Source of the DNA: Onthophagus taurus
Lineage: Eukaryota > Arthropoda > Insecta > Coleoptera > Scarabaeidae
DNA length: 64,000 nucleotides
NCBI RefSeq assembly: GCF_036711975.1
Contig: NW_027248941.1
Location: 2,914,001-2,978,000 of the forward strand
Reading direction: 5' to 3'
Shown here: positions 18,114-56,038 of the stretch, piece by piece
Layout of the letters: every line of letters begins with the position of its first letter
Numbering within the stretch: position 1 is the stretch's first letter
Notes under the pieces: generated by a model
The model's input: only the letters and a program-made list of their open reading frames with translations
Database searches by the model: none
Told to the model about the DNA's origin: nothing
Made by a program: the position numbers and the translations under genes

Positions 18114-19264
18114 TACAGGTGTATCTGAATGACGTGCCCGAACTTCAAGGGGTGATTCTTTAGTGAATTTTAAGGGTACTTTGATATATGAACCATGGGC
18201 GACTTCGGCTCCCCTAAGGAGCTACACCCCTCCAAAAATGGCGGAAAATTTTGGTTTAATTTTTTTTTCTCGAAAACCATAAACGCTAGGAAAATGAAAT
18301 TTAGGGAATATGTTTAACTCATAATAGGGCACGTTTTGATGCTATTTGTACTTTCAACCTACCCTTCTAAACTATTAAACGTAACCACCCCCGTTCAATT
18401 TATGCCTAGATTTTTTTTATGAAGATGATAAACACATTGGAAAAATTACAGTTAGATAGGTAAAACTATTCTAAAACTTTTTTATCTCTCTGAAGTTCTT
18501 CGAAAATTTAATAATTTCTGAGAAAAAAAATAATTAAGCAAACACTAACTGTTAAGCTGTAGGGTTGTTAATCGAAAGTTGGAATGAATTTTTAATGAAA
18601 AAACCTTAGTAGGCTTTGCGATCTTTGTCAGATGTATTTTTGACGTTTAAATGTCAGTGGTTTTTTTACTATTATTATTATTTTATTTAAAATTTTGAGC
18701 CTAAATGCGATAGAACTTTATTCAAAAATTAATTTGAAAAACAATAATAATAGTAAGAAAAACATTGACATTTAAACGTCAAAAATATTTCTGATAAAGA
18801 TTAGAAAGCCCACTAAGATTTTTTCATTAAAAATTCATTTCAAACTTTTGATCGACAACCCCGTTGTTTAACGGGCAGTGTTTGCTTTATTATTTTTTTA
18901 GAGAGACATGTTTAGAGAGGCTATGTAAAATTTTTTTAATGTATTTATCATCTGCATACAAAAAATTTTAGCAAAAATGTAAAGGGGGTGGTTACGTTTA
19001 GTAGTTTAGAAGAGTAGGATGAAAGTACAAATAGCATCAAAACGTGCCCTATTATGAGTTAAACATATTCCCCAAATTACATTTTCCTAGCGTTTAAGGT
19101 TTTTGAGAAAAAAAAATTAAACCAAAATTTTCCGCCATTTTTGGAGGGGCGTAGCTCCCCAGGGGGGCCGAAGTCGCCCATGGTTCATATATGAAAGTAC
19201 CCTTAAAATTCACTAAAGAATCACCCCTCGAAGTTTGTTGCAGTCATTCAGATACACCCTGTAT
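18114..19264. mobile_element. Long palindromic (foldback) element, family A
   Basis: The sequence is a near-perfect inverted repeat of about 1.15 kb. It starts TACAGGTGTATCTGAATGAC and ends GTCATTCAGATACACCCTGTA. Arms of about 550 bp meet at a short spacer near 18680-18735. The inner arms also pair (for example around TGACGTTTAAATGTCA at 18641 and 18768). No ORF is seen. An additional short inverted end (18088-18111) abuts the left tip. A second, broken copy lies at 43783-44077 and 45423-45470. It behaves like a non-autonomous foldback DNA element. The family that mobilises it is unknown. Confidence 0.75.
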
Positions 19265-20632
19265 ATATACTTTTGTTTATCTGTCACATCTTTGACAAGT
19301 GTAATTAAGTCAAAAATAGTTAATAAATAATTAAAAATTGTCAATAAATCGTGCAATTGTCGTGTATTAATCTCCCTAAAATACGCTCGAGCTTGATTTT
19401 AAATCAGGATAATTTTATTTTTAATTCACTCATGCTTTTGATTTCGAGTTATTTCAATGGTAACAAAACGTTCGTGTAAAAATAAAATTATCAAGCTCTT
19501 GTGTATTTACCCCCGATTAATTATTTAATTATTTTTCATAATTAAAAATAAAATCAAAGTTGGCGGATATGACTTGACGTTTTTGAGGTTATGTTGAAAA
19601 ATTCGCAAAAATTTGATCAAATTGCACCGTTTTTAATTGCTATTAGGATTTATCTCGAATTCGATTTTTTTTTTGGGTCAAACTGACAGCTTAAAAAATA
19701 TGAAAATGTCAAAAATCGATTTTTGTTTTGTTTTTAGTCGATGCGAAATTAAAAGGCGATTAATTCAAGTCCAAACATGACATGTTTTGGTTAAAAACTT
19801 TTTGAGATATCAACAAATAAAACATCAAAGATGGGTTGTTGGGTATCAAATTGCACGATTTTTAATCCCTATTATAATTAATCAGGAATTAGATTTCTTA
19901 TTTGATTCAAATAAGAAATCTATTTTGGTTAGAAATTGTTTAAGATATCAACGAATAAAAAAATTAAAGATGGCTTCAACTTGTTTTTTTGAGGTTATAA
20001 CAATTTTTTTAAGTAAAATATAGGTTGTTGGGTATCAAATCAAAGCATTTTTGATTGAAATGACGAATTTGAGCAATTTAAATTCCATTATTGGAAATGT
20101 TTACAATTTATTAACCCTTTAACGACGGGTTACCGTCAACAGTACACGTCTATTGACATGACCCGTCGTTAAAGAATTAAACATTAAAATGCATTAAAAT
20201 TTATTTCTATATTGCGAAATATATTGAATAAAAACCCAAACTTGTTTTTGACTCGTTTGACCTTAAAAAAGATTCAACCTTGTTTCATAATTTTCTTTTT
20301 CTTGAAACATTTTTTCCCAAGTCCACTGACCGACCTTCCATTTACCCTTTCTATTCTGCATTGAAATGTTTAATCGAGTTGTTTACCTCATTTAAAACAG
20401 ATTTTTTCCAATAATTTATTAGGTTCTAAAAGTAAGGTTAGAAATTAAAATTGTTGATCAATTATTTATTATTTTTTTCGTTTTAGAAGTAGCACAATGC
20501 TTAATCATCGATTTGAGTAATAAATTGTTATTGGAATTGGGTCAAAAAATAACTTAACTCAACAAAAATAAAAAATTTTAGGTTATGAAAAAATTAATTC
20601 AAATTTTTATATATAAAGTAACAAAAATAGCC
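19265..20632. other. Intergenic stretch with short repeats
   Basis: AT-rich sequence between the palindrome and HROB. Around 19790-20045 the phrases AGATATCAAC(A/G)AATAAAA and TTGTTGGGTATCAAAT each occur twice in the same orientation, a degenerate direct repeat. A 70 bp TTAA-flanked MITE lies at 20111-20180. No coding sequence is supported. Confidence 0.5.
20111..20180. mobile_element. 70-bp piggyBac-like MITE
   Basis: TTAA at both ends (20111-20114, 20177-20180) brackets inverted repeats CTTTAACGACGGGT and ACCCGTCGTTAAAG. The TTAA target and a CCCTTTAA-type tip are typical of piggyBac-superfamily ends. The interior has a second small inverted repeat (GTCAA/TTGAC). It is too short to code for anything. 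Confidence 0.65.
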
Positions 20633-21392
20633 TTAAAAATCATCGAAATCAATATCATTTAAAGCATCCCGAACGGCGTTAATATCTTTTTGAGTACTCT
20701 GACTTAAAATGACCACCGAAGCTGAATCTTCCTTGATTTGTATCGATTTAAACTTTTTCGGAGGTGGTGAATCAATTTCTTCATCGAAATCATCATAATT
20801 AAACTTGTTAACTGTAATAATTTGTAAATCATCACTTTTCTTCATTACGGAGTTATTAAAAAGGTTATAAATTTTTAAGAGGTTATTTTCAGTGATTATT
20901 AGGTATCGTTTAATTGGACTCATCGTTAATAAGCTGCACCCTTTCAAAATAAAAACCGAATTTATGGTTAAAAACTCTGAAAATCGCTCGTAGAGCTCCT
21001 CAGAAATAATCCCTCCAATTTCACCCGTTGGGTCGCACAAAATAAAATTGGGCTTCTTTCCGATTAATTCCAACAGCTTTATTTTAACTGCTAAAAATGG
21101 GATTTTCCGATTTATTATCTTAGAATTATTAATAACCCATCCAATGTTGTATTTATCCAATAAATAACCATGATTATTTTGATTTAAATCGTCCATCATT
21201 TCTAACCAGGTACCATCGGAGAAGGTATTCGAAGTTGATTGTGAGCAAAGAACCTTAAATTTATTTTAAATAAGATTTTTTTTAAATTTTAGTAATACTT
21301 ACGGTTTGCGATGAAATTTGATTCTCTTTTTCGGGTAACAATAAACCAGCGGGTCCTGGAAACTTCCTTTTAATAATTTTTGGGGTCTTCAT
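20633..21392 (-). CDS. HROB: Homologous recombination OB-fold protein, short form (236 aa)
   Basis: Exons 21392-21303 (30 codons) and 21253-20633 join in phase. The N-terminus carries the HROB hallmark RKFPGPAGLL (residues about 9-18). After a Ser/Gln-rich link, residues about 60-140 form the OB-fold domain: KIPFLAVKIKLLELIG, then FILCDPTGEIGGIISEEL, then INSVFILKGCSLL and RYLIITENNLLKIYN. HROB binds DNA and loads or activates the MCM8-MCM9 helicase in homologous recombination and crosslink repair. Human HROB is about 650 residues. This copy keeps essentially only the motif, the OB fold and an acidic tail, so the long disordered N-terminal half is missing. Confidence 0.82.
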
Positions 21393-21922
21393 TTTGTGTT
21401 GAGAAAGATCTAAAATTATTTGAGGTTATGTTGTAGTAAATAGACATGAAATTGGTTATTACAGGAAACTGCAAAATTTTAAGATGGCGCCACAACAAAA
21501 TTCCTATTGAATAAAAATAGATATTATTAATAAAGTAAAATTAAAAACTTTGCCTTATAACATTTTATTATTTTTTTTTGACTACATTTTTTTAATTTAT
21601 TTATGCTTATAATAACACATTCATTTTTAATCACGTTAAATACATATTCGGATTTTCCCGACCATTATTAATAAGAACATAATTAAATTAACATTACTTT
21701 CTACAAAAAAACCAAAAAGAAACAAAAATAATCTTTATTTGTATCACAAAATCTAATCTAACCTCACTTTTTTTTCGATTTAAGATTTTTAAATCATTTT
21801 CTTGGTGAAAATAATAACTTAGTAATTACTTAATAGTTAAAAATAAAAAATTAAATTTAAAGCGTAAGATGTTGATTATTTTTATCATATCTCGATTTTT
21901 ACAAAAAAAATGTGTCTAAATC
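21393..21922. other. Intergenic: HROB promoter and Atg8 3' UTR
   Basis: About 530 bp of AT-rich sequence. HROB starts at 21392 (minus) and the Atg8 stop is at 21923. Most of this interval is probably Atg8 3' UTR. No other structure is seen. Confidence 0.5.
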
Positions 21923-23106
<1,184 letters not shown>

Positions 23107-23760: not shown

Positions 23761-23859
23761 AACTGCCTTAATAACATAACCTCTTTCTTATCAATTTTAA
23801 TTACGAACATAGATGGCGCCACATAATTTCTTTTTGACAGATTAAAATTTAACCTCAAA

Positions 23860-30345: not shown

Positions 30346-33300
30346 TTACACGTTTTTTTCCTTCCCCTCTTCGTTCGTATAAACGATTTCGGCGTACTCA
30401 GTCTTTTCGTCGTCCGTTTTTAAAACGACTGGTTTTGGGTTAACATTAACCAAATCCAGCTCGGCGTAAACGACACCTTCGCGATTATGTTCTTTAACGT
30501 CTTTATTAGAATCGTTTTTGTCGGTTGTCGTTAGTGTTTCATCGGTTGGCGCCGAATTCTTTTTATCTGACTCTCCTTCTTCTGATGGGGCGTTTAGGTC
30601 ATCGCTTTGATGGCTCGGAGATGCTGCCTCTTTCTTTTTCGCGAAAAAGTCGGACAATTTCGGGACTAAACTGCGTTTTGAGTCGGTGTGTTGAACGCTT
30701 TCGGTGTCGCTACTAATTTTGGAATTAAATTAATTAATTTGTTGTTAAAAGTGTTGTGGGTTTGCTTACTTTTCTACGTTTCGGTTTGATGAGGAGGCTT
30801 AAAAAGAAATTAGCTTGATTAATTTTGTTGTGGAGATAATAACCCCTATTTGTTTGGTTTTTTGAGTTTTTTTGAATTCGTTTATTTATTTATAAAAAGG
30901 AATTTTTTTAACAATTTTAAACCAGTCTTAACCCACTTTTTTTTCTTAACTATTTTATTAATATCAATACTTTATACACAGATCTTAATTTTATCCGTTA
31001 ATTTGCCTTAAATTAATTAAATCGTTTAATTAATTAATTAATTAAGTAATAGTAGTACTCCCTAATATATTTTAATTCGCTTAACAATTAATTTATAGGG
31101 TTTTTTTGATTCTCTCTTAGTTTGCCTTAAAAAATTTACAATTACAAGTTGGACATAATTTTTTTTGACATATTTATGTTATTCAACAATTAATCGTCTA
31201 ACTTAAATTAAAAAAGAATTAATTAATGTTTACTCCTTATTGTCTTAAAAAATAGTATAAAAAAGTAAGAAAAATAATTTTTTCAAAAAATATCACGATT
31301 TAAAAAAATTTTGGAGAAAAAATAATAAAATTGGAATGTTTGTCTTTTTAGTGAGCGCCATCTCCATTTTTTTAATTTAATCAATGGCAGTGGAAATGTC
31401 AAAAAAGTTTATTAACCTCAAAAAAATTAATTTATTAAAATAAATTAAAAAAATGAAGCTGGCTTATTTTTTTTTTTTAATTGTTTAAACCGCGGTGTCG
31501 ATTTTTTTTTCTTTCTCTTTGATGTGATCGCCCCCGTTGACGAATTCTTGTGAATTATGCCGATTGGGGTTCTCGATGCCGTCCACGCCATGATGGCTCT
31601 GATCTGAGTGATGATGGTGGTGGGGGTGGTGGTGATTATCGCTCCCCGTTGTGTAGTCGATTACGCGGGCGCCCCCTACAAAAAAAACGAATAAAAGCTA
31701 ATAAACAATTTAATAATCAAAGCTGGCAAGCTACTAATATGTACGTCAAAAAAATCATGCGATTAATGTCAAAAATCCCCAACACCAACATAACAAAAAA
31801 AAAATTAAAATAAAAAAAAACTTGCCATCTTGGATGGGTTTAGCTTTTATTTGTTTTTTTTTTCGACTCAATTAATTAATAAAAAATAAAAAAATAAACG
31901 AATCACAAAAAAATCTAATTAAAACACTACAAAGAGGGATCAAATCAACCAAACAAACAACACATAAAAATCTACGTGGATTTTTTATTAACTTACCCGA
32001 AAAACACCATTTTCCTTTGATCCTCGCTATAATAACGGTAAAAACGAGTACCATGACGAGCATTAAAACAACGACGATTCCAACGATTCCCCCCACTCCT
32101 AAATCGAAACCTTCACAAAACAAAAATAAATTGATTACTTAATTTGATTAATTAATTATTAATTTTTTTAAATTAATTATTTTCTTACCAAAAACGCGAA
32201 CGTGCGATCTAATAAATTTATGAAGTCCTGTATCAGCGTGAAATAAAACGACTTTGGGACAGTTTATAATTTAAAGATCGCGGGAATTTATTGAAGTTAT
32301 TAATTAATAAAAAAATGAAATAGATTATTACCTTCCGGTTCGGGGCTGGTTGATATTAAAATGGAGTAATCCTGGGCGCCGATGCTGTTCATCGCCGTTA
32401 AAATGTATTGTGTTTCGGTGTCTTGCTTGGTGATAGCGGCTATTCGTAAATTTGCTAAATATTTTCCTCGTCCCTAAAAAAATTTTTTTCTTATAGCTAT
32501 GCACAATCCGCCCACTTTTGCGGAGATATTAAAAAAAATTATTAGAAAAGTCGGTTCTAAATCGAATTTGTAGCAACTTTTATATAAAGTAATTTTTGAT
32601 TATAACGATTTTTGATATTGATGTATAGCGCCGTGCAAAAACTTTTATACCTATACACATCCCAATCTAGTGAAGATATTAACATATTTTATTAAAAAAG
32701 TAGATTTTAAATCGAATTTGTAGCAACTTTTATATAAAGTAATTTTTGATTATAACAATTTATGATATTGATGTGTACAGGGTGTCCAAATTTCGATGGG
32801 TTGAAAGTTGCGGCTTTCGCGAACCTGAGCTACTTTTTTGTGAAACTTACAATGGCGCAAACCAAATTTTCATAGCCCTCTTCGTTTTTGATATACAGGG
32901 TGTGTTTCAAAATTTACGATTTTCAGACACCTCCTGTATCTCGGCTATCCGGAAATGTAAAAACGGGTTCTAATAGATTTTTTCACGTAGAATCCAATGC
33001 TGCACGTAGAATTTTTCTAGTCATCACGGTTTTTGAGTTATAAAGAGTTAAGTATTGTAGAAGTTGAGTATTTAGTATTTGAGTTGTGTTTATAACTCAA
33101 AAACCGTGATGACTAGAAAAATTCTACGTGCACCATTGGTTTGCACGTGAAAAAATCTATTAGAACCCGTTTTTACTTTTTTACTAAGTTTTCGGATAGC
33201 CGAGATACAGGAGGTGTCTGAAAATCGTAAATTTCAAACACTCCCTGTATATCAAAAACGAAGAGGGCTATGAAAATTTGGTTTGCGCCATTGTAAGTTT

Positions 33301-34780
33301 CACAAAAAAGTAGCTTAGGTTCGCGAAAGCCGCAACTTTCTATCTTTCATAATAACTGAGATACCCTGCAAACCCATCGAAATTTGGACACCCCCTGTAC
33401 AGCGTGCAAAAACTTTTATAGCTATATACAGCCCAATCTAGTGAAGATATTAAAAAATTTTATTGAAAAAGTTTACTTTAAATCGAATTTGTAACAATTT
33501 TTATATAAAGTAATTTTTGATTATAACATTTTTTGATATTGATATACAACGGTGTGCAAAAACTTTTATAGCTATACAGTCCAATTTAGCGGAAATATTA
33601 AAACATTTTATTACAAAAATCGGTTTTAAATCGAATTTGTAACAATGTAATTGTTGATAATAATGATTTTTGACATTGATGTACAGAGCGGTGCAAAAAC
33701 TGTTATACCTATACACAGACTAATCTATCGGAGATATTAAAACATTTTATTACAAAGATCGGTTCTAAATCGATTTTGTAACAAGTTTTCTTTAAAGTAA
33801 TTTTTGATATAGTGCCAATTGACCATATTATTGTAATACCTACCATATCTTGCACTTCTTCCGCATGAATCCTTCCCGTCGCATCAACACTCCCAGCTTG
33901 AATCTTCTGCTCCCTCACCGTCCATTCAACCATCGGTTGGGGGTTCGCCTCAATCTCGACCTGAATAGTCCCCGGTTGACTTAACTCAAATCCAAATCTT
34001 TCAATAGGATTTCCTTGGGGAAGCGGAGGATATTGAACGTTCAACAACTTCATCGTGCTCGCCGTGTTTTGTTGCATCGCGGGGTGCGTCGCAACGCATT
34101 TCAAGTGCTTCCCGTGGTCGCTCGCATGAAGTTGCCTACTGATGTTTTGGACCTTCGTGTGAAGATCCTCTTTGACGTAATCGAACACGGACGGCATGCT
34201 TAAACCGTCCAAAAGCGGCTCGTCGTCTAAATACCAACTTATATTCGCGACGGGCCGCCCATCTCGAACGACGCAGGACGCTTGAAGTACGTCGTTTATC
34301 CTGTGGGGGTCCGCGTTTCTCGCAACTTCTAATTCAGGCGCTTTTGGGGCTCCTAAAAATTAATTATTAATAAAGTATAATCAAATAGAGATGAAGCAAG
34401 AACTAACTTGCTACGGTTAAATGCATCCCCCCCTCTTTTTCTTGGTCTTCAGTTTCGATTCCGAGAAAACAAGTTATTTTCCCGTTGTTTTCCTCGGTGA
34501 CGCGATTTATGATGAAGCCGCATTGACCCGAATCCAATCCGTTACCATAGTAAGATACCTGCGATAAGCACAAACAATTTTGAATTTGGGGTGCGTTCAA
34601 AAATTGGGTCACTTACACCTTTCCTCGATTGTAATTTGCTGTTTAGGTTTAACGATCCTATTCCGGGGATGAGAACCCTGCAATATTGTAAGGGGACGCG
34701 GAGGGTACACAAAAACGTCGCGTTTTCATTCGGGAGGGCGATCGCTTCTTTTGGGATGACGTCGACGAATCCAAGACATC
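30346..34780 (-). CDS. Fas3: Fasciclin III, immunoglobulin-domain adhesion protein (lacks first exon)
   Basis: Minus-strand exons 34780-34617, 34558-34408, 34352-33844, 32473-32332, 32110-31976, 30797-30770 and 30712-30346 join in phase to 497 residues after the missing start. Three Ig-like domains are readable: the first with FLCTLRV, DSGQCGFIINRV and GKITCFLG; the second with VVRDGRPVANISWYLDDEPL and LKCVATH; the third with IQVEIEANPQPMVEWTV. A single membrane helix follows (IVGIVVVLMLVMVLVFTVII), then RIKGKWCFSGKLIKNP and a SDTES motif, recalled from the fly protein. The tail ends in YAEL and YAEIVYT, possible phosphotyrosine sites. Fas3 mediates homophilic adhesion at septate junctions and synapses. 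The signal-peptide exon (ending in phase 1) lies upstream and was not found. Confidence 0.88.
32189..32227 (-). CDS. Fas3: Candidate 39-bp cassette exon of Fas3
   Basis: Between a CAG acceptor (GCTGATACAG) and a GTAAGA donor, this piece keeps phase 1 on both sides. If included it adds 13 residues (reading LHKFIRSHVRVFG) just outside the membrane helix without breaking the frame. Fas3 is known to make isoforms. Whether this exon is used is inference. Confidence 0.4.
32490..33835. repeat. Tandem array of about 140-150-bp units in a Fas3 intron
   Basis: About five degenerate units, each containing TTTAAATCGAATTTGTA(G/A)CAA, TAAAGTAATTTTTGATTATAA and GTGCAAAAACTTTTATA. The GTGCAAAA mark occurs at 32633, 33404, 33554 and 33691. 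The array is split by a palindromic element at 32776-33399. It fills most of the intron between the third-Ig exon and the next one. Confidence 0.75.
32776..33399. mobile_element. Palindromic (foldback) element, family B
   Basis: Left tip TACAGGGTGTCCAAATTTCG and right tip CGAAATTTGGACACCCCCTGTA are inverted copies. The arms of about 290 bp meet near 33065 in GTTATAAAG/TTTATAAC sequence. An inner repeat of the tip (TACAGGGTGTGTTTC) occurs in each arm. It has no ORF. It is inserted in one unit of the surrounding tandem array, next to a TA. Confidence 0.75.
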
Positions 34781-35716: not shown

Positions 35717-36718
35717 TATACTCTGTTTTTAAACCAGGAGGAGTATTTTAAATTTGTCACCAGATTGACCTTGCACGTGATTGGTTGAATGCGAGGAAGG
35801 TTCACACACAGGCAATTTTGAATTTGAAGGTTAGGTTATTTGACAATTCGACAGTTTCGTGTCATTATTGTAAATTTTGTGTTCTTAAACCCTTCTTTAT
35901 TATATTTTGAAATAAATACGCTCATAACTTCAATGTTAATTTGTATGTTTAGTGTTGACGATAACAAACGAAAATAAATACAATAATAAGTAAATAAATA
36001 AATAATAATATATATATATATATTATATATATAGCGTGAAGTTTTCTTTTGTAATGTCAATTATAGCGTGAAGGAATGTTCGGTAAGGTTAGTTCTGTTT
36101 ACAAACATTAATTATACCATGAAGTATTCTTTGGCAATTTGTAATGGCAATTATAGCGTGAAGTTTTCTTTTGTAATGTCAATTATAGCGTGAAGGAATG
36201 TGAGGTAAGGTTAGTTTTGTTTACAAACATTAATTATACCATGAAGTTTTCTTTGGCAATTTGTAATGGCAATTATAGCGTGAAGATTTCTTTTGTAATG
36301 TCAATTATAGTGTGAAGGAATGTTCGGTAAGGTTAGTTTTGTTTACAAACATTAATTATACCATGAAGTTTTCTTTGGCAATTAGTAATGGCAATTATAG
36401 CGTGAAGTTTTCTTTTGTAATGTCAATTATAGCGTGAAGGAATGTGAGGTAAGGTTAGTTTTGTTTACAAACATTAATTATACCATGAAGTTTTCTTTGG
36501 CAATTATACTCTGTTTTTAAACCAGGAGGAGTATTTTAAATTTGTCACCAGATTGACCTTGCACGTGATTGGTTGAATGCGAGGTAAGTAAATAAATAAA
36601 TAATAATAATAATTAATTTAAATTTACCGCCAAAATATCTAGTGATATTTTCTGGTGATTTTTCCTAGTGTAAATCTGACTTTCGCGTTTACTCCTCCTG
36701 GTTTAAAAACAGAGTATA
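35717..36718. mobile_element. TIR element carrying a 122-bp minisatellite
   Basis: The left end TATACTCTGTTTTTAAACCA (35717) is repeated directly at 36505, and its inverted copy ends at 36718 (TGGTTTAAAAACAGAGTATA). The two direct left ends share about 84 bp. Between them lies a perfect-period tandem array (36030-36504). This is either two nested copies of one non-autonomous element or one element whose left end was duplicated when the array grew. No ORF. Confidence 0.65.
36030..36504. repeat. Minisatellite, 3.9 copies of a 122-bp unit
   Basis: The motif TATAGCGTGAAG(T/A)TTTCTTTT begins at 36030, 36152, 36274 and 36396, each exactly 122 bp apart. Units differ at few positions (for example TTCGG versus TGAGG). 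Each unit itself holds two diverged half-repeats (ATAGCGTGAAG and ATACCATGAAG). Confidence 0.85.
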
Positions 36719-40799: not shown

Positions 40800-43782
40800 A
40801 TAAATGTCTCATTTTATTTTTTCAGTTGGTATTTATTCAGCGTTAGATTACTTTAATAAAAAAGGAATATTTAAAAAGATGAAAGATGACAGGTCTTGTC
40901 AATGAGGGTTTATTAAAATGATTTCGATGTAGTTAAATAGCGCGTTATTATTTTTTGTGGGATTTTAGCGGTTGTTATTTTTTAATAATGCGGAAACCGG
41001 GGCAATTTCCGTCCGCCCGGTGGCCCCCGCCACGCCAATTTAATTAATAATTTATAAGCGATTACCCCAACCGATGCGCCGCCACTGACTCTGATTTTCA
41101 TAAAACGCGAATTCCCCACCAAACGAGTGATCGATATTCAATATTGTCGCCAACATTCGAATTTATGTGCGGCGGGAAATTATTAACTTTTGTTTTCGCC
41201 CTCCTCCCCCCATCTCGTCCGCCCCCTTTACCCCCAACATCAACAACCGCCATTGTCGAAAACAACCCCTAAAAGCCCCGCACATTATTCACCGATTTAT
41301 TTTCGACAAATTTTCATTTATTTCCGCCGATTTGATTATTTATTAAAGTTTTTATTTGAAAGAGAATTTTTTTTTAAACGAAAATGTAACCCTTAAAGTA
41401 CGCTTTCAGTAAAGAACGACCGTTCGGTCCCAAACACTCACTAAAGATCGCGCCCCGAAAGCATTTTTGCCACGGTGAGTGTGTTTTCTTGTTCGCTCGC
41501 GTGTGCCGAGACGTAAGTTGGTGAAAACCCGCCCTGAAAGGGGGTTGGGTTGTCGAAAGGAAAACCAGCGGCAACTACGGACATTTTGAACCCTTTCAAC
41601 GTTGCCCTCAGGGCACCCGAACGCTTCGAAATTACACAGGAAACTTGCTTTTAGCCTCGTACCTACCGTTGAAGACATAAATGAATTTTCAAAATAAAGT
41701 TTGGTTAAAAATAAATAAATTAAAAAAGAAAAAAAAGTGTAAAGTAAAAAAGGAACGAATAAGAAGAAGAAGAAGAACGATATTGGATTTTTATAGAAAA
41801 GTTTTCCGACGCCGACGAGGTTTTCGAGGGGGATGATGTTTACCTCTGACCGAGATTCGTAGACGTCAGCTTGTTTATAAGTCGAAATCTGGGAAATGTA
41901 GGGCATCTCGACCATCTACCCAAGTGAAGAATTGCGAGGGGACGAAAAAATAGGGTCAAAAACAAACCTATTTGTTATTTTAATTTATATGAAAACGAAT
42001 AAATAAATCTAATATAAATAATCAATTATATTGAGAAATTGGGTGCATTCGCGTTTGTTAAAGCTATAATTTTTGAGAAACTTCGACACGAAGCTTAAAA
42101 CACGGCAAAAATAAAAAGAACCAAGTGAAATTACCAAGAAAAAAATTAAAACGAAACCAACTCAGAAGTAGTTACATTCATTTGCATATCACGCGAGCTT
42201 CGTGAGCTTAATGACGGTAAGTTTATTCTAAAAATTTCGTTGGAATATTAAGAATTTACACATATACAGGTGTCACACAAAAAACGCCCCAACCTGTAAC
42301 TGTCATTTACATTCCGATTTTCATGACCCAGGTATCAAATAAAATGGTTCCACAACGATTATCAACTTTTGATTTCGTCGGTATGTTTTTCTTCACGCTA
42401 TTGGATAGAGATTCTTTTCTGAATAAATTAATGTACAACACATCAACAATAATTGTAATTGCAGCATAGAAAAACATTAAAATAATTTCCTAACATTCTC
42501 TTAAAGTGACTTGTGTTATACTGTAGTGTGCCACGGAATAAATAAAAAAAAAACAACTTATAAGTATCATTTACAACTGCTTCATTTTTGTGATAAATTT
42601 TAAGACATTTTATGAATATTAAGAATATGTCGAAATTGAGATTGACATTTAAAACCTGAAGTTGGTCATTATATAGTAGAGAAGTCATGTGTGAAGTTAG
42701 AAACGTCAAAAGTTGAAATTGACGTTTTCGAGTTAAAAATTCCGTCTAATTTGGTATTCACGCATCGTTTCTTCCCTTTCGACCCAACCCTACTGGTGCT
42801 AATAAAACGTAAAGAAAAGAAAATAGTAAATGGGAGAAAAAGACAATAAAGCGAAACCGTTTTAAAGTCTATCTTGGAGTCGACGTCGTTTTCTTCGTTG
42901 TCGTCGTCGCTCTCAGAGTGAGAATCTCGACAATTGCTTGGGCTGCCGGCAATATCTATGGAAATCGTCGCGTAAACGTGGAAGAATTTTCTCCTTCACA
43001 TAAAATAGTTACACTATTTTAGGAAAAAAAAATTAACTTTAAATTTTTTTCTTTTTTTAATTTTCATTGAAAAAGATTTCCTCAAGTTTTCTTCCTCCTC
43101 TCCGAGTTTCTTTTCGATCCTTTTAATTCGCTTCTTGAGAAAGTTTCTATCTTGTTTATCCCACGGGGGAGTTAGGCGTAGAAGTGGTGGAGCACGTTCT
43201 CCGCCCCCTCTTTTCAGGGGAGCTCGACCAAGTCCAAAGGAAGCCGGTAATTAATAATAGCGAACAGTTTCTGTGGCCACAGGCGCCGAGACGCGACGTC
43301 CAAGAAACTTACCCCTAACTTCGGACAACTTCTCTAATTAATATACACGCGACGTTGGGGTACTTCACCATCCTCACAAACCGAAATTCGGTGATTTAAT
43401 TTTTTTTTAATTAATTTAATTATTTTTGAACCAAAATATGCACGTCACGTATTCGTAAAAAATCCCGCCTCTATAAAACATCAAATCCCCTGCCATTAGC
43501 GATGATATAGAGCTCGAACGGACGCCCGATATCGTTTCGCATCCCACCCTCATCCCCCTTTGTTACTGATGGTGGGAGGGGGGGACAACGACAAAAATCA
43601 AACTGCGAGTATGTATCAACCCCTCAAAATAATAGGGCCACGTTTCTTATTTTTGACATTTTCAACTTAACAATTAACATTTTGACATTTCTGACAGATC
43701 ATGTGATTTTCAAATTCGATTAATTCGTCAATGCGTCAAAATTAGATTAGAACCCTCTAAAACACTATAAATACCATGTATA
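40800..43782. other. Single-copy non-coding stretch with one repeat piece
   Basis: No supported gene. Long open frames at 41374-41915 are low-complexity shadows. 42266 starts a lone tip, TACAGGTGTCACACAAAAAA, like the ends of the palindromic elements but without a partner. 42590-42720 is a fragment of the dispersed repeat. 43440-43510 contains TATAAAACATC on the plus strand, which could be a TATA box, with no gene seen after it. Confidence 0.35.
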
Positions 43783-45470
43783 TAGGTAGGGTGTCTCTGA
43801 ATGACTGCAACAAACTTCAAGGAGTGATTCTTTAGTGAATTTTAAAGGTACTTTAATATATGAACCATGGGCGACTTCGGCTCCCCTGGGGAGCTATGCC
43901 CCTCCAAAAATGGTGAAAGTTATTGGTTTAATCTTTTTTTCTAGAAAACTATAAACACCAGAAAAATGAAATTTGGGGAATAAGTTTAGCTCGTTTCTAG
44001 CTTATTTGTACTTTTAATATTCCCTTCTAAGTTATTAAACGTAACCACCCCCGTTCAATTTATGCCTAGATTTTTGTTAATAAGCATTTTATTGTTTTTA
44101 ATATTTACCATTTTTATCCCCTTAATACATTCTAATATATATATTATTATTAGTATATTATTTTCACCCTCTACCCTCTTCCTCCATTTCCATACCCTCG
44201 GCTCCTCGGCCCAATCATCCCCTCATCCTTCCCTTTGTCTCCTTACCCCCACAACCATTCTCATCCATCGTTTCCCCTCTCCTAAGATCTGCCCTCGGTC
44301 CAACTCCTCCTCCCTCAACTCACTGCACCCATTCAACATATGTTCCAACGTTTCCCATTCCTCCCTGCATAGCCTACACCACCTCTCCTCATCGGCCATC
44401 CAGTATCTGTTAGCTTTCTCCTCGTTTCCACAAAGGAACCTAGCCACCAACTTCTTCCCTTCCTCATCTCCTTCCAATAACAAGTATCTAGGCAGCCCCT
44501 CCGTTATTATGTCCCTGTACCTTTCGTTATATCTCCCCTCTTTTATTTGTGTCCTTCTTTCCTGTCTCTGCACATCTCGGTCCCTATCTCTCAACTCCCT
44601 CCACATCTTCCTACCCACCCTTCGTCTACTATTTATCTCAGTTACCGAGTAGCCCGCTCGTCTATAATAGTTGTCTCTGTCTCCTTTCCCATATCTGATC
44701 TTTCCCTCTCTAATTTCCCTCCAACACTCCCCCAAGATCCCGCAGTTTGGTCTCCCTTCTATTTTTTCTTCATATTTCACTGCTCTCCTGCCCGCCTCCA
44801 CTCTGACCTTATCCACCTTTACCTCTTCCCTCACTATATACCCCGGTGTTTCTCTCGCCACCCCAAGCACCCATCTCCAGTATCTAGCTTGCACGTCCTC
44901 CAGCATTGCCTGCTCTCTCCATCCCCATACATCATCACACTGCTAACCAGGCCTTCAAACATAATCTTCCTCGCTGCCACATTCCTTCCAAAAACTCTCT
45001 TCCCCCAACCCCATACTTGTCCCATCACCTTATTCGCCTTTTTTGCCATAGTTATCACATGCGACCCCTCCCTGTTGTCCTCCCTGAACACATACCCCAA
45101 GTAAGTATAGTCCCTAACCTCCTCGATCTCTTTTCCCTCCCATCTCCAGTTTTCTGTTCTTTTTCTCCCATCCTTACAAAACTTCATCATCCTTGTCTTC
45201 CCCACATTCACTTCCAGCCCCTTCCCTCTAAAATATCTTTCCAATGTCTTTATCATATCTTTCATCTCCGCCGCTTCTCTCGCCATGACCACGATGTCAT
45301 CCGCGTATGCTAACATATGCACCTTTCTACCTCCCACCACCAACCCTCCCATTTGCCCCTTCCCCAATCTATCCTCCAGGTCCGCCGTATACAGTGCAAA
45401 CAGACTTGGGCTCAGCGGACAGGCCTAGATTTTTGTATCAAGATGATAAATATTCAATACAATATTGTGA
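43783..45470. mobile_element. Broken copy of palindromic family A, split by a LINE
   Basis: 43783-44077 matches the left arm of the element at 18114-19264 (shared blocks GAACCATGGGCGACTTCGGC and GTAACCACCCCCGTTCAATT). The match resumes at 45423 (GCCTAGATTTTTGT, then AAGATGATAAA) and is lost by about 45470. Only part of one arm remains. The interruption is a LINE with its own target-site duplication. Confidence 0.7.
44078..45422 (-). mobile_element. 5'-truncated LINE (reverse transcriptase C-terminal part)
   Basis: Minus-strand frames 45367-44834 and 44906-44223 together cover the end of a non-LTR reverse transcriptase. The catalytic AYADDIVVMA box is near the truncated 5' end. YTYLGYVF and a C-terminal CRLCREEWETLEHMLNGC zinc knuckle follow. 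One frameshift in the overlap separates the two frames. The 14 bp direct repeat GCCTAGATTTTTGT flanks it (44064-44077, 45423-45436), so the insertion is precise. It lies in a copy of palindromic family A. The clade is uncertain. Similar frames are familiar from ant genomes. Confidence 0.85.
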
Positions 45471-47553: not shown

Positions 47554-49600
47554 GCTACTTTACCATACAGCTCGGCAAATTACAAAAAACATACATTATT
47601 TATGAAAATATTTGGATGAAATTTTGTACATAGCTTCTTCTAACAATTCTACATAACGCATGGTGAAAATTTTTAAAGTTTTCCAAAAAAAGGGGTTTTT
47701 TTCCTCAATATTATACAATTTGGTCGTTCTTTTTTAGCTTGCATGATAGTATACTTGAAAATAGTAATATTTTTCAAATAAATTTTTTCAAAATTTTTAG
47801 TTATAAAGGAATAGTTTGTAATTTGCTAAAATTGCAAAAAGGTAGCGTAAAAATGAATATTTTCCGTCAAGATTCCCACGAAGTATTACCACCGCGTTAG
47901 TCCCGCCTCCTGCCGACTGAGCGGCGCTGACATCGACTCTCTTCATCGAAGCTCCTTGTTTTATCTATTACTTTTTAATGTGGTAGAGAAAATAATCATT
48001 TCCAAAAGTACGTTTTGAACTTTATTTTCCGTGATTTTCTACTAATGATTATGTAATTTAACAAAATTTTTGAATTTATAGTCAATAGTTGTTATTTTAT
48101 TGTGTACTATAGTGTTAGTTTAATTTAGTTTGTGTAAAGTTTTTATAAACAATGGGTAAGTATGTTCATCTAAAAAACTACCCCTTAGCATTTGAAGATG
48201 TTCTCGAAAAAGGAGTAATAGACGGTAATAATTTACGATATAAATTTTTATAAAATCTAAAATTTCATATTTTATAGTCCGAGATTCAATTGAAAAATGT
48301 ATTCATTCCGAAAGGTAAGTTAAATTTTATTAATTTTATTGTATAAACTGTGATACACATAAAAAGGACTTATTTAAAAAGAATAAACCATCACAGTAAA
48401 AATTAAAACGATACATTATTTGAAGCGATACCATAAGTTAAATAATACAAATGATGCAGAACCAAATACTGATGGTGGAGAATAATCCATTCAACTGCAA
48501 CAAAACTCGCATTAAATTTATTAATGAGTCAAAAGAAGGGCTTAGCAGCTCATTTCTTTTATGTTTTATGTGCGGGATAAAAAAGAAGCTTTACACTGAA
48601 GAAAGCAAAAAGTCTATTGAGATAAACTCTGCTGTTGTTTCTGTTATCTGTCGGTACCGGATATACACAGGCTGAAGAATTATTGTTATGTGTGGATATA
48701 CTATTTATGTTAACAAAAACATTCCAAAAATATCAAGAACCCGTAAGTGACATGGCATAGCAGTCTATGAAGAACGCAGGTAAAGAAGAATTAATTTAGT
48801 TACAGCTTCAGGAGAAGTAAATAAAGACTGAATAAAGACTGTAAACGCTAAACGCTCGAACAACATCAATTACGATGCATCATCCGGAGTGGTACTGCTA
48901 TAAAATAATTGTATACAATAAAATAAAATACTCGTGTATACAGGGTAATTCAGGTAGGTAGCGAAAGCCGATCAGGGTAATGATAGCAATTCGGTTATAA
49001 TTTATGAGTGACATTTCACACGAAGAATATAAAAGAAAGAAGAATTTATTGGAAACTTGCAAGATGGATGCATTAACAGAAATAAAATACAAATTCTTAC
49101 CAGAAGCTAAAGTACCAATCAGATATGGATCCAAGAAAGGTATCTGTGCCTAACTGCATCGAGATTTGGTGATGTATGTAGGATGAGAAATGACACGTCT
49201 TGCTTAAATAAAGTTAAATCAATCTTGTACTCGAAATTTGCTAGAAATAATAACACTAAACATGGCCAAGACTATGAATGACTTGCATTAAAAAAATTTG
49301 AAAGTAAATATAACTTGCCAGCAAACTCTTGAGTTCTATTCATCCGTAGGATGTATGGATTCTTAGTTGCAAGTCCAAATGAAACAATAAAAAACGAAAA
49401 TGCCATCGTCGAGGTGAAGTGTTCAGCGAATTTCAAGAGCTTACATCTATTCAACGATGGCAAATTAAAATTTCCTAAAGATTTTTCTAGTCAGGGCTGT
49501 TTTATTTATTACACTATTAGCCATATTTTGTATACTTCAATCATTATTTAATATTATTATTAATTAGGTATTACATATTATTTCATTTACTTATACAAGG
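47554..49600 (+). mobile_element. Broken Mutator-like transposon with a YqaJ exonuclease domain
   Basis: Four coding blocks lie in order on the plus strand. Two small in-phase exons (48152-48224 and 48278-48314) start MGKYVHLKNYPLAFEDVLEK. Then 48510-48770 has IEINSAVVSVICRYRIYTG, AEELLLCVDILFM and KTFQKYQEPVSD, matching the Mutator-like transposase domain seen in insect genes. Finally 49145-49470 has ASRFGDVCRMRNDTSCLNK, ILYSKF and FLVASPNETI...AIVEVKC, the YqaJ/lambda-exonuclease fold. The usual SPDG aspartate is Asn here. Several stops and shifts break it, and the central transposase is largely missing. An inverted pair (47554-47587 and 47815-47847, GCAAATTACAAA) marks the left side. The right end is unclear. 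Confidence 0.65.
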
Positions 49601-50448
49601 TGATGCAGACCATGCAGTCCATTTTTTTAAACAGAAATATTAAAAAAGTTCGAATGAAAAGTAATAATATTCATAAAGGAACCACATTTATTCAGCTATT
49701 TTTTGTTTAATTTTTGTAACTACCTGTTTTCAAATAAAATTACTTACACGGTTACTCTGAGACACCTGTATATCAAACGAACGCATAATAATACAACAAA
49801 GATATAATTTATAAATGTTGTACCGAACTTTTCACATTCCTGTATTGCAAATATATCTATTTTAATATAAAATGAAGTTATAAATGTTATTTTCGTTTCA
49901 AAATGATATAAATGTTTTATGCGTCGCAAAATTATTTATTGCATTTGAAATTGATTTTTGCCTTACATTCAGTTGAATTATAAACCCATAATCTTAGATG
50001 TTCTCAACTTCTTTCTCTAATTTCTCTATTAAAAAATTAATATTCTATTCATATCGAAAAAAAGCATTAAAAAACTGATATTTGCGTAATGTAAATTGTT
50101 GTGAACCAAAATACTTAAAAAAAACAAACGTAGTAAAAAAGTGGGCTAAATAACTAAAATAATAAATAAATTGGAAAGTCAATAAAAAGATTGATTGTGA
50201 TTCGTAATTAAGAAAAAGTGTTAATAAATAATAATATTTAGAAGAAGTCGTTTAATTTCTTCATTAACAACATCGACGAGAAAAAGAATCGTAATAAAAT
50301 AAACACGATGTTTTTTTTATCTATAAAGGGTCGGGCCTAGTAGAAAATAAACTCCGCCTCGTTGCTTCCGAACGTCCGTCGTCTGCGCCCCTCAGAAACT
50401 GACCGACCTGGTAAAGTGGGCTCTTAATAACAACTAAAACTAGAACTA
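49601..50448. other. AT-rich non-coding stretch
   Basis: No gene seen. 49762-49776 (GAGACACCTGTATAT) resembles a lone tip of a palindromic element. 50325-50430 is a more mixed segment (GGGTCGGGCCTAG, CGAACGTCCGTCG). Confidence 0.35.
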
Positions 50449-52125
50449 CATTACATTACATAGAATACATATAGGGTAGGCGGACCAACCAACCTTGCAC
50501 CGCGACCCTAAGGATCTATTGTACCCCGATAGATATCGTTATCAAATTTCACCGTGCAGTCCAATGCTCTTAACGAACATTAATACCTTGCTCGGCGAAA
50601 GGTCATTCAGATCTTTTGAGGAGATAAACTGCGACCCAAAAATCGAGAATCTGATACGGTTAACGGCAGGACAGTGGCATAAGACATGCTTAACCGTCTC
50701 TGCTTCCTCCGCACATAGTCGGCATTCAACATCGTCGGTTAAACCCAACAAGTTGAGGTGTGCTTTTAATCGGCAGTGCCCAGTAAAAACACCCATTAGA
50801 ACTTTTATGCTACTACGGGCAAGTCCTAAAATATTCCCGGGTTTGACAGTGGCGATGTTAATAAACACCTTAGCATGTCTCATTCCAGGAGAACTGGTCC
50901 ACAGTAGGCGAAGTCTCTCTTCAGCCCACAGTCCAATCCTATATTTGGCCATCGCAAAAGATACACCAACTGCTGGTTCCGGCCCCACAAACGCTTCAGC
51001 GCTGCCATCTCGTGCTACTTTATCTGCCGCTTCATTGCCAGCAACCCCAGAGTGACCCGGGACCCAGATCAGAGAGACTCTGTTATCACAACTCAGTGTG
51101 TTTAATGTTCTCTTACAATCATTAACCAGAGTCGACACCGTTTTCACGGCTTGCAGCGCCTGGAGAGCGGCTTGACTGTCTGAGAAAATTCGTACTGTCA
51201 TGTTCTTCACCCCTCTTTCAAGAAGGATTTTAGCACCCATGTCAATAGCAAATACTTCCGCCTGGAATACAGTACAGTACGTACCCAGGCTGTAGGCTTG
51301 TTTAATTCGAGGTGTCTGGCAGTATACTCCTGCTCCTACCCCTTCAGGCGTTTTTGATCCATCTGTGTACAAGCAAATGTCTGCCCGAACCAGAGAATTT
51401 TCATTTTCGATCCAGGACTGCCGCTCAGGCAGTACAATCTGGTATCGAGCATTAATCACTGATAGTGATACCGCCAAATCTGACGGCATTGATAGCACAG
51501 TATCAGTGCTTATAATGTCTTCCGCAGCCCATTGGTAGGACATGTCGGAACAGTTTTGAGCGTATTGCTTAAATCTGTAAATGGTTGTTCTAGCCACTTT
51601 CTCTATATGCAAATGCAGAGGAGATAGGCCAAGCAGAACCTCCATTGCTAGAGTTGGCGTTGTGCCTATCGCACCAGAGATTGCCAATCCAGCTACTCGT
51701 TGAATTCGTGAAAGTTTACTGATAACTGAAGTCTGTCGGACTTTCCTATACCAGGCTGCTGCTCCGTATGTGATCATAGGTCTAACCACAGTCACATCAT
51801 AGAGCCAGTACAGTCTTTCAGGGGTAAGACCCCAATTTTTTCCACAAAGACTGCGACAAGTCCACAAGGATAGTCTAGCTTTGTGCAAAACTCCCTGCAA
51901 ATGTCCATTCCATGACAGGGTTTTGTCTAGGATTACTCCTAGATATTCGACTTCCTTTGAGAAAGGAATTTCTTCACCTTGGATAGTTGGACGGATTAGT
52001 CCATCCAACTTTCGCTTCCCGGTGAAGGGCACAACAATTGTCTTTTGCGGGTTTATTGAGAGGTTCTCTCCCTTACACCAAGCGCAAATGGTATCTAGGG
52101 TCACCTGGAGGACTTTAGATATAAG
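50449..52125 (-). mobile_element. 5'-truncated LINE with an open reverse transcriptase/RNase H frame
   Basis: A single minus-strand frame from 52104 to 50542 (520 residues) is uninterrupted. It covers the end of the reverse transcriptase (EVEYLGVILDKTLSW, MITYGAAAW). An RNase H domain follows with the acidic residues in CLYTDGSKT, FQAEVFAID and IFSDSQAAL, plus WVPGHSGVAGNEAADK. A zinc knuckle CRLCAEEAETVKHVLCHC ends the protein. RT plus RNase H in this order fits the I/R1/LOA group. The 3' tail is a TGTAA repeat. The 9 bp direct repeat CTAGAACTA flanks it (50440-50448, 52126-52134) within a CTAGAACTAACAC element. The intact frame indicates a young insertion. Confidence 0.88.
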
Positions 52126-52290
52126 CTAGAACTAACATTAGACCTAGAAACATCTCTCCAGACGGCTAAATCGGAATGATTCTAGTTCTACGTCTTGTGT
52201 TAGTTCTAGTGATAGTGCTAGAGCAAAACTAGAACTAACACTAGACCTAGAGCTAAAAACATTTGGGTTTAGCCGTTCGTCTGAAGACGA
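52126..52290. repeat. CTAGAACTAACAC-family fragment, host of the LINE
   Basis: Blocks CTAGAACTAACATTAGACC, GATTCTAGTTCTACG, GTGTTAGTTCTAGTG and ACTAGAACTAACACTAGACC show a head-to-head arrangement of family tips. Joining 50425-50448 with 52135 onward gives a continuous family sequence, which shows that the LINE inserted here. Confidence 0.65.
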
Positions 52291-52369
52291 AAGTTTTAAA
52301 CAAAAAATAATCTTTGTGAATCCTGTATAGCATTGATCCCGTTTTAGTGTGCAGATAATGTGATTTGGC

Positions 52370-53050
52370 CTGATTAAGCCGAGGTCGCTTGCGGGCGTGA
52401 CTTTTCAATTAATATCATATCACCGTTTGGTTAAACTTGAGATAGAGTTTGTAGCTTTTATGCTTAATTAAGTCCGGGCGCTGTAATTGATACCACATCA
52501 GCACTAAATTGCACAACACTCAACAATTAACGTATCAACCAAAGGCTGATTCGCACATTGCAATGCCTCGGTTGTACATGTAGTTGAAACATTTAAGTAC
52601 GATGTTAAGGTTTATGTTCTCAGCTTATCCACATTTATATTATTATAAATATTGACCTCGGCATATTCAGAATTGTATCGGTATGATATGAATTAACACC
52701 ATATGTGTTAATCGTTTTTTTTTTTGCAATTCGTATAATTAGTTGTGGATTCTCTATTACAAGATTAACCGAGGTTGCTTGCCTCCGAGGTGTTGTAGTT
52801 TAAGTTAGAACCGTAACGACATGGTTTAATCAAGTACAATACCACATTTTAAATTCTCCGTTTAATCAAGGTCGTTTGCGGTCGAGGCGCTGCGACTCAT
52901 TTTGAATGAATGTCGTATTAACTGCAATTCCTGAGCTTAATTCAGCGAAGTCGTATATTCAGCGTTCTAGCATAAACCGAGGTTGCTTGTTTCAAGGTTC
53001 CCCATGATTAATCTGGAATTTTATATGACATCAACATCGGAAAATTATAA
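52370..53050. repeat. Degenerate repeat with CCGAGGT(T/C)GCTTGC boxes
   Basis: The phrase TTAA(G/C)CCGAGGTCGCTTGC and variants occur at about 52378, 52767, 52863 (AATCAAGGTCGTTTGCGG) and 52977 (AAACCGAGGTTGCTTG). The last three are spaced about 100-115 bp. Between them lies similar AATTAA-rich sequence. This is an old tandem array or several fragments of one repeat. Confidence 0.45.
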
Positions 53051-54432
53051 ACGCATTTGTAATGTTTTTGTAGAATCAACCAATCATTTTTTTTAACCCA
53101 TCCACATAACTTACTTTATCTTCGTCCAATAATTCTTGCGCGCATTTTCCCAACCGATGCGACATCGTCGGTTTCCCGATTTCCCCACGCAGATAAACCC
53201 CGGGGTTGAACGTCACTGGAGTTAAATTTACACCAGCGGTCGTTAGTCACGGACCGTAGGTGCGTTTTCGGCCACCCGCGAATGATTTACTTTCCCCCAA
53301 AACCCCGACACACCGCTCGCCCAACCCAGGATGTGATCCCGAAACTCTCACAGAGATAAACTCTCTTCCTTCAAATCACACACAAAATCAACCACAAAAA
53401 AATCGATAACACATAAAAATAACCACCCCTATATAGTTGGGTAGTAACTATACAGGATGGTTATTTTTAAAAAGATGTTAATTCCCAAAAGTAGAGTTTT
53501 TACAACGAGAGTGTTATATTCGAGGGGGTGCTTTTAAAAGCATGTACAACGACCGCGGGTAATAAATAACAATTTTTCGAGGGCGAGCACCCATTAAGCC
53601 CGACGTTTTTTACGTCACACTTATTATTTTTTTGTTTCATTTCTTTTTTTTTTTTTGTATAAAAACGTAATCATCAAATCAATTTTTACATCTAGACGCG
53701 CATCAAAAAGATTTCCGTAAGAAATCACACTCATTAAAAATAATTAAAGTGCTCGAAAAAAAAAAGGGTGGTTTCGGATTTCACTTTAATAACGAGGTGG
53801 TTGGTTTTTTTTTTCTTTAATGAGGGCGCTAAGGAATTACTAAGGTGTAAGAAAAGGACAACATAGAAAAAGATAACAAAGGAATTGTCCCGATACTTTT
53901 AAGGGAATTCGTCGTCGTAGAAGAAGAAGGGGTGAAAACTCCCCCCCTCCGTCACAAAATGGGTTTTCCGCATGGAAATTTCCGGTGGAAATATTCGAAT
54001 CTCTCCCACTTGACCAACCGGTGCAAGAAAAATTCAATATAACGCTTCGAAAAGCGGTTTTTGATTTTTTTTATTTCCCTCGTAACCACCATCGAAAAGG
54101 TTCAACCCCCTACAGTCGCCGACGTTTTCACCTCGTTTCCTTTCCCGCGCGCCCTTAACGTTTCAAAAACCACCATCTCTCGGGATAAAAACGACATTTT
54201 TCCACCGGAAATGTAACTCAATTTGATTTCCCCATAGATGCCGCAATTTTAATTTCTATTCGAAATATATCACGTTAAATTATGCGAAACGAGCGTAATA
54301 ACAATAAAACTTTTCAAACTTTACACAAATCCACCCCATCCACCCCCTTCTCTTCGTTACGATACAAACTTGGAACGTTAAACCAAGTTGAGTTCGGGTA
54401 ACGTTTGATGCATTCAAAAGCTGCTTAACATA
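53051..54432. other. Single-copy stretch with a candidate 5' exon and a hairpin
   Basis: Moderately GC-rich with no supported gene. On the minus strand 53165-53115 reads ATG plus 16 codons up to a GTAAGT donor (see findings). At 53418-53473 arms AAAATAACCACC...TATAGTT and AACTATACAGGATGGTTATTTT pair as a hairpin, with tips like the palindromic elements. 54370-54430 is inverted relative to 47190-47260. Confidence 0.4.
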
Positions 54433-54828
54433 TACAGGTTGTCCCGTATCTTCCGCATCAGAGCATTATACGGTTGTAGGATAGATTATTCTGAAGCAAT
54501 CTTTCTAATAAAATTTTTTCGAAATGTTTATGATAACCGCACGGGAACTGTTTAAACGAACTGTTTTTCGTCCAATCAGCAGATCGCTACGCCGATGATA
54601 ACCGTTTCCCACGTGTACTCACCAATAGATTCGGCACGGAAAGGGAAATAAACTTTTTCGGTGAATCAAAGTCGTCCGCTATTGGACAATAGCGGATAAC
54701 TTTAAACTGTTCCCGTGCGGTTAATATAAATAAACATTTCGAAAAAAATTTATTAGAAAGATCGCTTCAGAATAATGTATCCTACAACCGTATGAAGCAC
54801 TGATGTGGAAGATACGGGACAGCCTGTA
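54433..54828. mobile_element. Palindromic (foldback) element, family C
   Basis: Left tip TACAGGTTGTCCCGTATCTT and right tip AAGATACGGGACAGCCTGTA are inverted copies. Arms of about 180 bp include CGTGCGGTT/AACCGCACG and CATTTCGAAAAAA pairs. TA flanks both ends. No ORF. Confidence 0.75.
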
Positions 54829-54842
54829 TAGAATGTGCGGTA

Positions 54843-56038
54843 TACAGGGTGTTTCGGTGACTCGGGGAACAAATTTAACCATATATACTAGAGTGAAAAT
54901 GATGACGATTCATGTAAAAAAAAATTAGTAAAAGTCTTCAAATTTCAAAGATACAGGCCATAAAAGTTAGGAAATTTTAACACATTTTTCCAAATATCTT
55001 AAACACTATTTACAGTAAAGCGTTGAAATTTGGTACAGTGTAAATCAATGTCATGTAAAATCGTTAGGCAATTTATGAATTGGATCGGTCATCGGGAACA
55101 ATGCTATATAGGATCTTCCTAAAGTTTGTTTGTTCAGAACTTTTTTATTCTATCATAACCGTACATTTACGTTTGCAGTTCCTAATAGCAAATTTAATTT
55201 AGAAATTTTTATTACTCTTAGATAATATTGATAAAAGTCGCCGTTTTCGTGTTAAATGCAAAAATGTTGGGTTCCGATTTCATTAATAGCACTAAAAAAA
55301 AAAAATAAATCTAAGTTTTTGAACATTTCCTTTAGTATTTTTTATTACTTGTTTTGTTATTTTATGTATGTTTTTATTATTCCTATTGGTGTTGTCGTTT
55401 TTTTGTTTATTTTTTGTTGATTTTTAATTTATGGTTTTCGAATTCATTTATTAAACCAACTAAAACAAATTAAAAATGTGATTTAGCTAAATCTACACTG
55501 GGACATGTTGCATGCATAATAGTTATGACAGCTCAGTTCGATTTTCACTTGTCATTGCCAATTCAGATTATTTATTTATTTCTTTTTTTTTGTGTTATTG
55601 AATTCGGAACCTAACATTTTTGCATTTAATACGAAAACGATGGTTTTTATCAATATTCTCTAAGAGTGATAAAAGATTCTAAACTAAATTTACTATTAGA
55701 AACTGCAAAAATAAATGTAGGGTTATGATAGAATAAAAAAAGTTCTGAGCAAACAAAGTTTAGGAACAGCCTGTATAGCACTGTTCCCGCGTACCGATCC
55801 AACTCAAAAATTGCCTAATGATTTGACGTGATATTAGTTTACACTGTACCAAATTTCAACGCTTTACCATAAATAGTGTTTAAGATATTTAGAAAAATGT
55901 GTTAAAATTTCATAATTTTGATAGCCTGTATCTTTGCAATTTGAGGACTTTTACTAATTTTTTTTACATGAATCGTCATCATTTTCACTCTAGTATACTA
56001 GGTTACATTTGTTCCCCGAGTCACCGAAACACCCTGTA
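54843..56038. mobile_element. Palindromic (foldback) element, family D
   Basis: Left tip TACAGGGTGTTTCGGTGACT and right tip AGTCACCGAAACACCCTGTA are exact inverted copies. The arms run about 500 bp each to a low-complexity centre near 55430. Paired blocks include ATGACGATTCATGTAAAAAA and AACGCTTTAC. It lies only 14 bp from family C. No ORF. Confidence 0.8.

Follow-up and report, generated by a model that had tools for sequence, protein, structure and literature searches.

The window analysed here is a 64,000-nucleotide stretch of the genome of the scarab beetle Onthophagus taurus (contig NW_027248941.1, positions 2,914,001 to 2,978,000). It has a G+C content of 34% and contains split open reading frames (ORFs) with strawberry notch, ATP synthase and LSM domains, together with reverse transcriptase genes of the non-long-terminal-repeat (non-LTR) type. 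Four near-pure palindromes, named A, B, C and D, lie among them (Table 1). Their ends carry a common short tip, and their arms show no clear similarity to one another. A-D are probably non-autonomous cut-and-paste elements of the IS630-Tc1-mariner kind. They would be mobilised in trans by a transposase that targets TA and needs little beyond the tip. IS630-Tc1-mariner is the superfamily that we propose for them.

Table 1. Palindromic elements, their copies and tips, and the empty sites of B; positions are counted from the first nucleotide of the window.
Feature	Position	Strand	Description
Palindromic element A	18114..19263	.	1150 bp; tips TACAGGTGTATC / TACAGGGTGTATC; TA on both flanks
Palindromic element B	32776..33399	.	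624 bp; tips TACAGGGTGTCC / TACAGGGGGTGTCC; within tandem array
Palindromic element C	54433..54828	.	396 bp; tips TACAGGTTGTCCC / TACAGGCTGTCCC
Palindromic element D	54843..56038	.	1196 bp; both tips TACAGGGTGTTTC; 14 bp from C
A2, second copy of family A	43785..44078	+	one arm only; damaged tip TAGGTAGGGTGT
Stub, equal to the right end of A	18085..18111	-	27/27 bp identical; tip-to-tip with the left end of A (CCCTGTATATACAGG)
Empty site left of B	32524..32772	+	array against joined B flanks, 89% over 249 columns
Empty site right of B	33403..33646	+	array against joined B flanks, 86% over 246 columns
Inner tip pair of B	32894..33249	.	concentric; centre 33071.5, outer centre 33087.5 (16 bp apart)
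Inner tip pair of D	55107..55775	.	left TATAGGATCTTCC, right TACAGGCTGTTCC; centre 55441.0, outer centre 55440.5 (0.5 bp apart)
Additional convergent TACAGGC pair within the D arms	54952..55930	.	no TA before it
Mini element in the left arm of B	32894..32938	.	45 bp, tip at each end; right-arm counterpart 33206-33249
Mini element	42265..42298	.	34 bp, TACAGGTGTC...AACCTGTA; first described as a lone tip
Convergent tips around decayed YqaJ gene	48939..49770	.	TACAGGGTAATTC / TACAGGTGTCTC; doubtful as an element
Short hairpin	53414..53469	.	TACAGG (53451) on the loop side; construction unlike A-D

Palindromy was measured by aligning the left half of each element with the reverse complement of its right half, with 30 bp of flank included. 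The preliminary description of this DNA had presented A-D as almost pure palindromes of 0.4-1.2 kb, and the alignment of the halves confirms this; the right end of A, which had been placed at 19264, was one base too far and is corrected in Table 1. The two halves are identical at 492 of 553 aligned positions in A (105 gap columns), 279 of 297 in B (90 gap columns), 174 of 201 in C (54 gap columns) and 508 of 605 in D (46 gap columns). Folded as single-stranded DNA, B reaches -297 kcal/mol, compared with a mean of -62 for 20 shuffled sequences. The palindrome of D apparently extends at low identity for about 16 bp beyond its tips (54827-54842 and 56039-56054), and another tip-like sequence, TACAGAGT, lies near the end of this extension.

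The tips are the feature that A-D have in common. All eight ends begin with TACAGG, as had been reported, followed by zero to two bases and then by TGT. The consensus is [TA]CAGGGTGT or a near variant of it, and A-D have terminal inverted repeats with a common tip. Tip counts in the window are inflated by palindrome arms being copies of each other, and with this bias TACAGGGTG with at most one mismatch occurs 19 times against 4.71 expected (maximum of 10 in 100 shuffles), and the pattern TACAGG[GT]?TG occurs 14 times against 1.03 expected (maximum of 3 over 60 first-order simulations). Palindromes were also collected blind to the tip. This gave 22 inverted pairs, and 16 spans were checked after six overlapping rows had been dropped. 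TACAGG is present on both ends of four of the 16 spans, which are A-D, and on neither end of the other 12. One of these 12 is the tip-to-stub junction beside A, where the tips lie at the middle of the span. Overlapping and diverged inverted repeats are clustered at 60974-63529, and those of their ends that were checked lack TACAGG. Among 25 microbial loci found with tip-based patterns (12 + 2 in IMG/VR and 11 in GTDB), none has a convergent pair of exact TACAGGGTG sequences 20-3000 bp apart. Single matches to the tip patterns in IMG/VR and GTDB are taken for chance occurrences in microbial sequence.

Insertion at TA is the second feature, and here too the earlier claim stands: a TA flanks each of A-D. 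Empty sites at B fit a duplication of this TA. B lies in a tandem array that has a period of about 139 bp on its right side. Array sequence on either side of B matches the flanks of B joined at a single TA, and both matches span the junction. On this comparison of sequences, the two sites fit an insertion of B with a 2-bp TA duplication. A further TA (TATACAGG) precedes 16 of the 19 listed tips and tip-like ends. The three tips that are not preceded by it, namely both outer tips of B and one tip of a mini element, argue against a longer duplication.

Family A is repeated in the window as the partial copy A2 and as a stub. The similarity of A2 to A ends close to the start of the sequence that leads to a non-LTR reverse transcriptase on the minus strand. 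An alignment of the left arm, the right arm and A2 has 293 gap-free columns. All three sequences agree in 233 of them and one column has three letters; the two arms agree against A2 in 32, the left arm groups with A2 in 16 and the right arm with A2 in 11. The arms of A are therefore closer to each other than to A2, a pattern that either a greater age of A2 or homogenisation of the arms would produce. Shortly before A, at 17573-17814, there is a two-copy tandem repeat with a unit of 122 bp and 90% matches.

The contents of the arms were compared in 12 arm pairs and two orientations, giving 24 comparisons, with the first 12 nt removed and 100 random sequences for each. The number of random sequences that reached the arm score was lowest for C left with D left (1 per 100), B right with C right (2) and A right with B right (3). 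The next-lowest counts were 7, 8 and 9, and all others were at least 15 of 100. Three comparisons at or below 3% stand against 0.7 expected. We read them as no clear similarity because the opposite arms of the same pairs, with counts of 42, 9 and 74, fail to repeat them. Of the claim that the arms are unrelated, what can be retained is that there is no clear similarity past 12 nt; similarity is at most faint, which is not proof of none, and some arms may have a common origin, if a faint one.

Under the proposed mechanism, a transposase encoded elsewhere would bind the short tip, cut beside it and insert the element at a TA. Since such a transposase would read only the short tip, the content between two inverted tips would hardly matter. 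As for the palindromes themselves, an inverted duplication of the DNA beside a tip, primed for example by the fold-back of a broken end, would create them. The duplication would supply a second, inverted tip and the stretch would become mobile, producing elements with unrelated arms and the same ends. According to the portions of the yeast work consulted, breaks close to natural inverted repeats lead to inverted duplication in cells without Sae2 or the Mre11 nuclease, and fold-back priming has been proposed as the route; a similar step may, by analogy, have produced A-D. Repeated formation of palindromes at such tips had been offered earlier as an alternative to a transposase. It is likely a complement of the transposase reading and not its rival, because both B and D contain inner tips lying concentrically within the outer pair.

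Seven extra exact copies of TACAGG lie inside A-D, four in B, three in D and none in A or C. This density (7 in 3366 bp) exceeds that outside the palindromes (18 in 60634 bp) at p = 0.0002, with arms that are not independent of each other. Both B and D have an inner tip pair centred on or close to the centre of the outer pair, and the left inner tip of D is mutated to TATAGG. The 45-bp mini element of B is present in both arms, so it predates the palindrome or its last homogenisation.

The concentric tips can be explained in two ways: either an element jumped into an older palindrome at its central TA, or a single event duplicated a tip-bearing stretch in inverted orientation. The jump, which in both B and D would have taken a younger palindromic element to the very TA that marks the midpoint of an older one, is a serious but tentative possibility. 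When the flanks of the inner tips are joined at one TA, they form a palindrome centred on TATATA (62 of 62 positions in B and 52 of 62 in D), and Tc1-type elements prefer TATATA-like palindromic targets. However, inverted duplication yields the same joined palindrome automatically, and the joined outer layers offer 16 TA sites in B and 51 in D, of which the centre is just one. The inner arms also do not appear younger. Mismatches between arms amount to 8 of 150 positions in the inner part of B against 1 of 118 in the outer part (p = 0.08), and to 25 of 201 against 25 of 263 in D (p = 0.37), neither difference being significant. As judged from these alignments, the inner arms seem at least as diverged as the outer ones, which does not favour a younger inner insertion.

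Inverted duplication could also act in successive rounds, in which a break at or beside a tip would fold back on a palindromic element and copy the flank out to the next tip. We consider such growth unlikely. It predicts concentric tips, which are present in B and D, and younger outer layers, which would appear as mismatches concentrated toward the centre. With columns within 3 of a gap dropped, mismatches over A-D do skew centreward (Stouffer Z of 6.0 for whole arms, 4.8 for the outer 85% and 2.5 for the outer 70%), but B and C taken alone show no such trend in the outer 70% of the arms. The trend could stem from poor alignment near the loop, and repair that erodes palindrome centres could produce it as well. 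We met no description of concentric tips in the open-access literature, where no search was aimed at them by name and only part of the matches was listed.

Coding sequence for a partner was sought by six-frame Pfam scans, which covered 31.0-50.4 and 52.1-64.0 kb except for two gaps of less than 150 bp. The scans gave YqaJ, a weak PF20700 match, reverse transcriptase and Ig-type domains, as well as a sub-threshold zf-RVT match beside reverse transcriptase; sub-threshold matches to SAUGI and Meth_synt_1 are taken for chance. B, C and D are free of Pfam matches, and A lies outside the scanned range. Non-LTR reverse transcriptase ORF stretches occupy 44223-45424 and 50542-52125, both on the minus strand (RVT_1; RNase H with a below-cut-off zf-RVT match). 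A diverged 115-bp palindrome at 52162-52276 lies directly upstream of the retrotransposon ORF at 50.5-52.1 kb and perhaps belongs to its 5' end. Rfam gave no match in 30-64 kb, and a tRNA scan of the window with the bacterial code gave none either.

The YqaJ domain belongs to a decayed gene (48530-49449, plus strand) and covers 49126-49449, with E-values of 1.5e-9 and 5.1e-10 in two scans. It sits between two convergent TACAGG tips, one of which had been listed as a lone tip at 49762; the outer end of that tip is at 49770, and it has possible partners at 48939 and at 49594 (TACAAGG). Membership of A-D in a superfamily that carries YqaJ, for instance ISL2EU of the PHIS group, with the decayed gene as the relic of their autonomous partner, was favoured at first and is now held to be improbable. 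According to the portions of PMC4482050 consulted, a YqaJ ORF is present, as the second gene, in most candidate autonomous ISL2EU elements, and the relic shares this gene with them. The same portions state that ISL2EU duplicates AT in A|AT|T and that its ends usually start with GG, whereas the empty site of B fits TA and the ends of A-D start with CAGG after the TA. A Mutator-like PF20700 match upstream of YqaJ in the same orientation (48530-48790, E 0.0033, below cut-off) suggests, moreover, that the left tip at 48939 falls within the relic gene. A search for terminal repeats of the relic in 47.0-50.45 kb gave 25 short pairs, none of them convincing. The decayed gene is probably a relic of some other transposon.

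Under another reading, A-D would be local inverted duplications that arose independently and stayed in place, sharing their tips by chance or as a preferred breakpoint sequence. This is very improbable: B and C have no second copy elsewhere in the 64-kb window and D has only a 24-bp match, as such a reading would predict, but B interrupts a tandem array whose empty site fits TA duplication, A has a second copy and a stub, and the tip is enriched in the window.

Several points weigh against trans-mobilisation of A-D by a TA-targeting transposase. A DDE transposase was not found in the scanned 31.0-50.4 and 52.1-64.0 kb. The array units beside the empty site of B contain small indels, and the match is not letter-perfect. 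Only B yielded an empty site; for A, C and D the flanking TA was seen but no such site was found. Mariner-type binding sites are usually longer than the 10-12 bp of the shared tip. A single transposase serving all four palindromes is a candidate only, and inverted duplication is a process that we infer and have not observed. The preliminary description had postulated one transposase that recognises about 10 bp and captures arbitrary DNA. That proposal is supported in part: the shared tip, the lack of clear similarity between arms, the TA duplication at B and the repetition of A speak for it; the failure to find a DDE transposase in the scanned ranges speaks against it.

Some other tips in the window have a different form. 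The hairpin near 53418 had been counted as a further example of the tips, but its TACAGG faces the loop and its outer ends carry no tip. The tip at 42266 was thought to stand alone; it has an inverted TACAGG partner at 42298, and the two bound a mini element. The stub of A may be a decay product of a palindrome, and so may the mini elements of 34 and 45 bp. About 1 kb at 35717-36718 has TATACTCTGTTTTTAAACCAG inverted ends, with a 122-bp tandem array of 3.9 copies inside it (36030-36505) and an extra direct copy of the left end at 36505.

Very long inverted arms with variable content are also characteristic of the foldback transposons Galileo and Tetris. These have longer target duplications, whereas B fits 2 bp. 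Similar CAGG-TG tips may occur in mariner ends, for instance in Himar1 and Mos1. Further parallels have been described in insects. In Callosobruchus maculatus, large (1-2 kb) non-autonomous Tc1-Mariner elements that are often full palindromes make up 5.2% of the genome, and 13 consensus sequences of 654-2199 bp represent them in the portions of PMC10849321 consulted. A-D are likewise palindromic, and A (1150 bp) and D (1196 bp) fall inside this size range. B (624 bp) and C (396 bp) are shorter, and the comparison is one of description only, as those portions mention neither a tip sequence nor concentric tips.

In Anopheles gambiae, 6 of 32 clusters resembling miniature inverted-repeat transposable elements (MITEs) are palindromes, and three groups have common ends and different interiors (parts of PMC3212995). 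Palindromy and the sharing of ends are alike in the mosquito and in A-D; the parts consulted give neither a tip sequence nor a target site. The Gambol examples from Anopheles are MITEs that retain the outermost part of the ends and have unrelated interiors. The parts of PMC3212995 drawn on leave open whether a master element supplied the interiors of MITEs or whether they were copied in from another site following a break. Among the matches listed in the open literature, the tip turned up only in a paper on Rhodnius prolixus (PMC4678618, consulted in part), where MITE_83.0 and MITE_113 have the ends TACAGGGTGACC and TACAGGGGGTGG, duplication included, and are classed as 'Tc1-like ?' and 'Tc1-like'. 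Their ends are similar to those of A-D, full palindromy is not described in the part consulted, and the question mark attaches to the class of MITE_83.0. Tip-like words, looked for in passages of PMC5490172, PMC7577297 and PMC6696609, led to nothing useful; in PMC8982398 the search was for palindromes and MITEs and not for the tip.

Palindromic Tc1-Mariner relics and MITEs that share their ends are thus already known, and A-D are further members of that kind. Families with the same ends and unrelated contents lead back to an old question, the source of MITE interiors. With four such palindromes in 64 kb, and concentric tips in two, the question has a testable handle. The tip could also help to sort repeats of insect genomes that are listed as 'unclassified'. 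If palindromes arise by inverted duplication beside a tip, a tip-bearing genome could keep making families without a coding ancestor. If they also grow outward from tip to tip, every round would add an outer layer and a new mobile family with unrelated arms, and the unit that begets families would be the tip and not an ancestral sequence.

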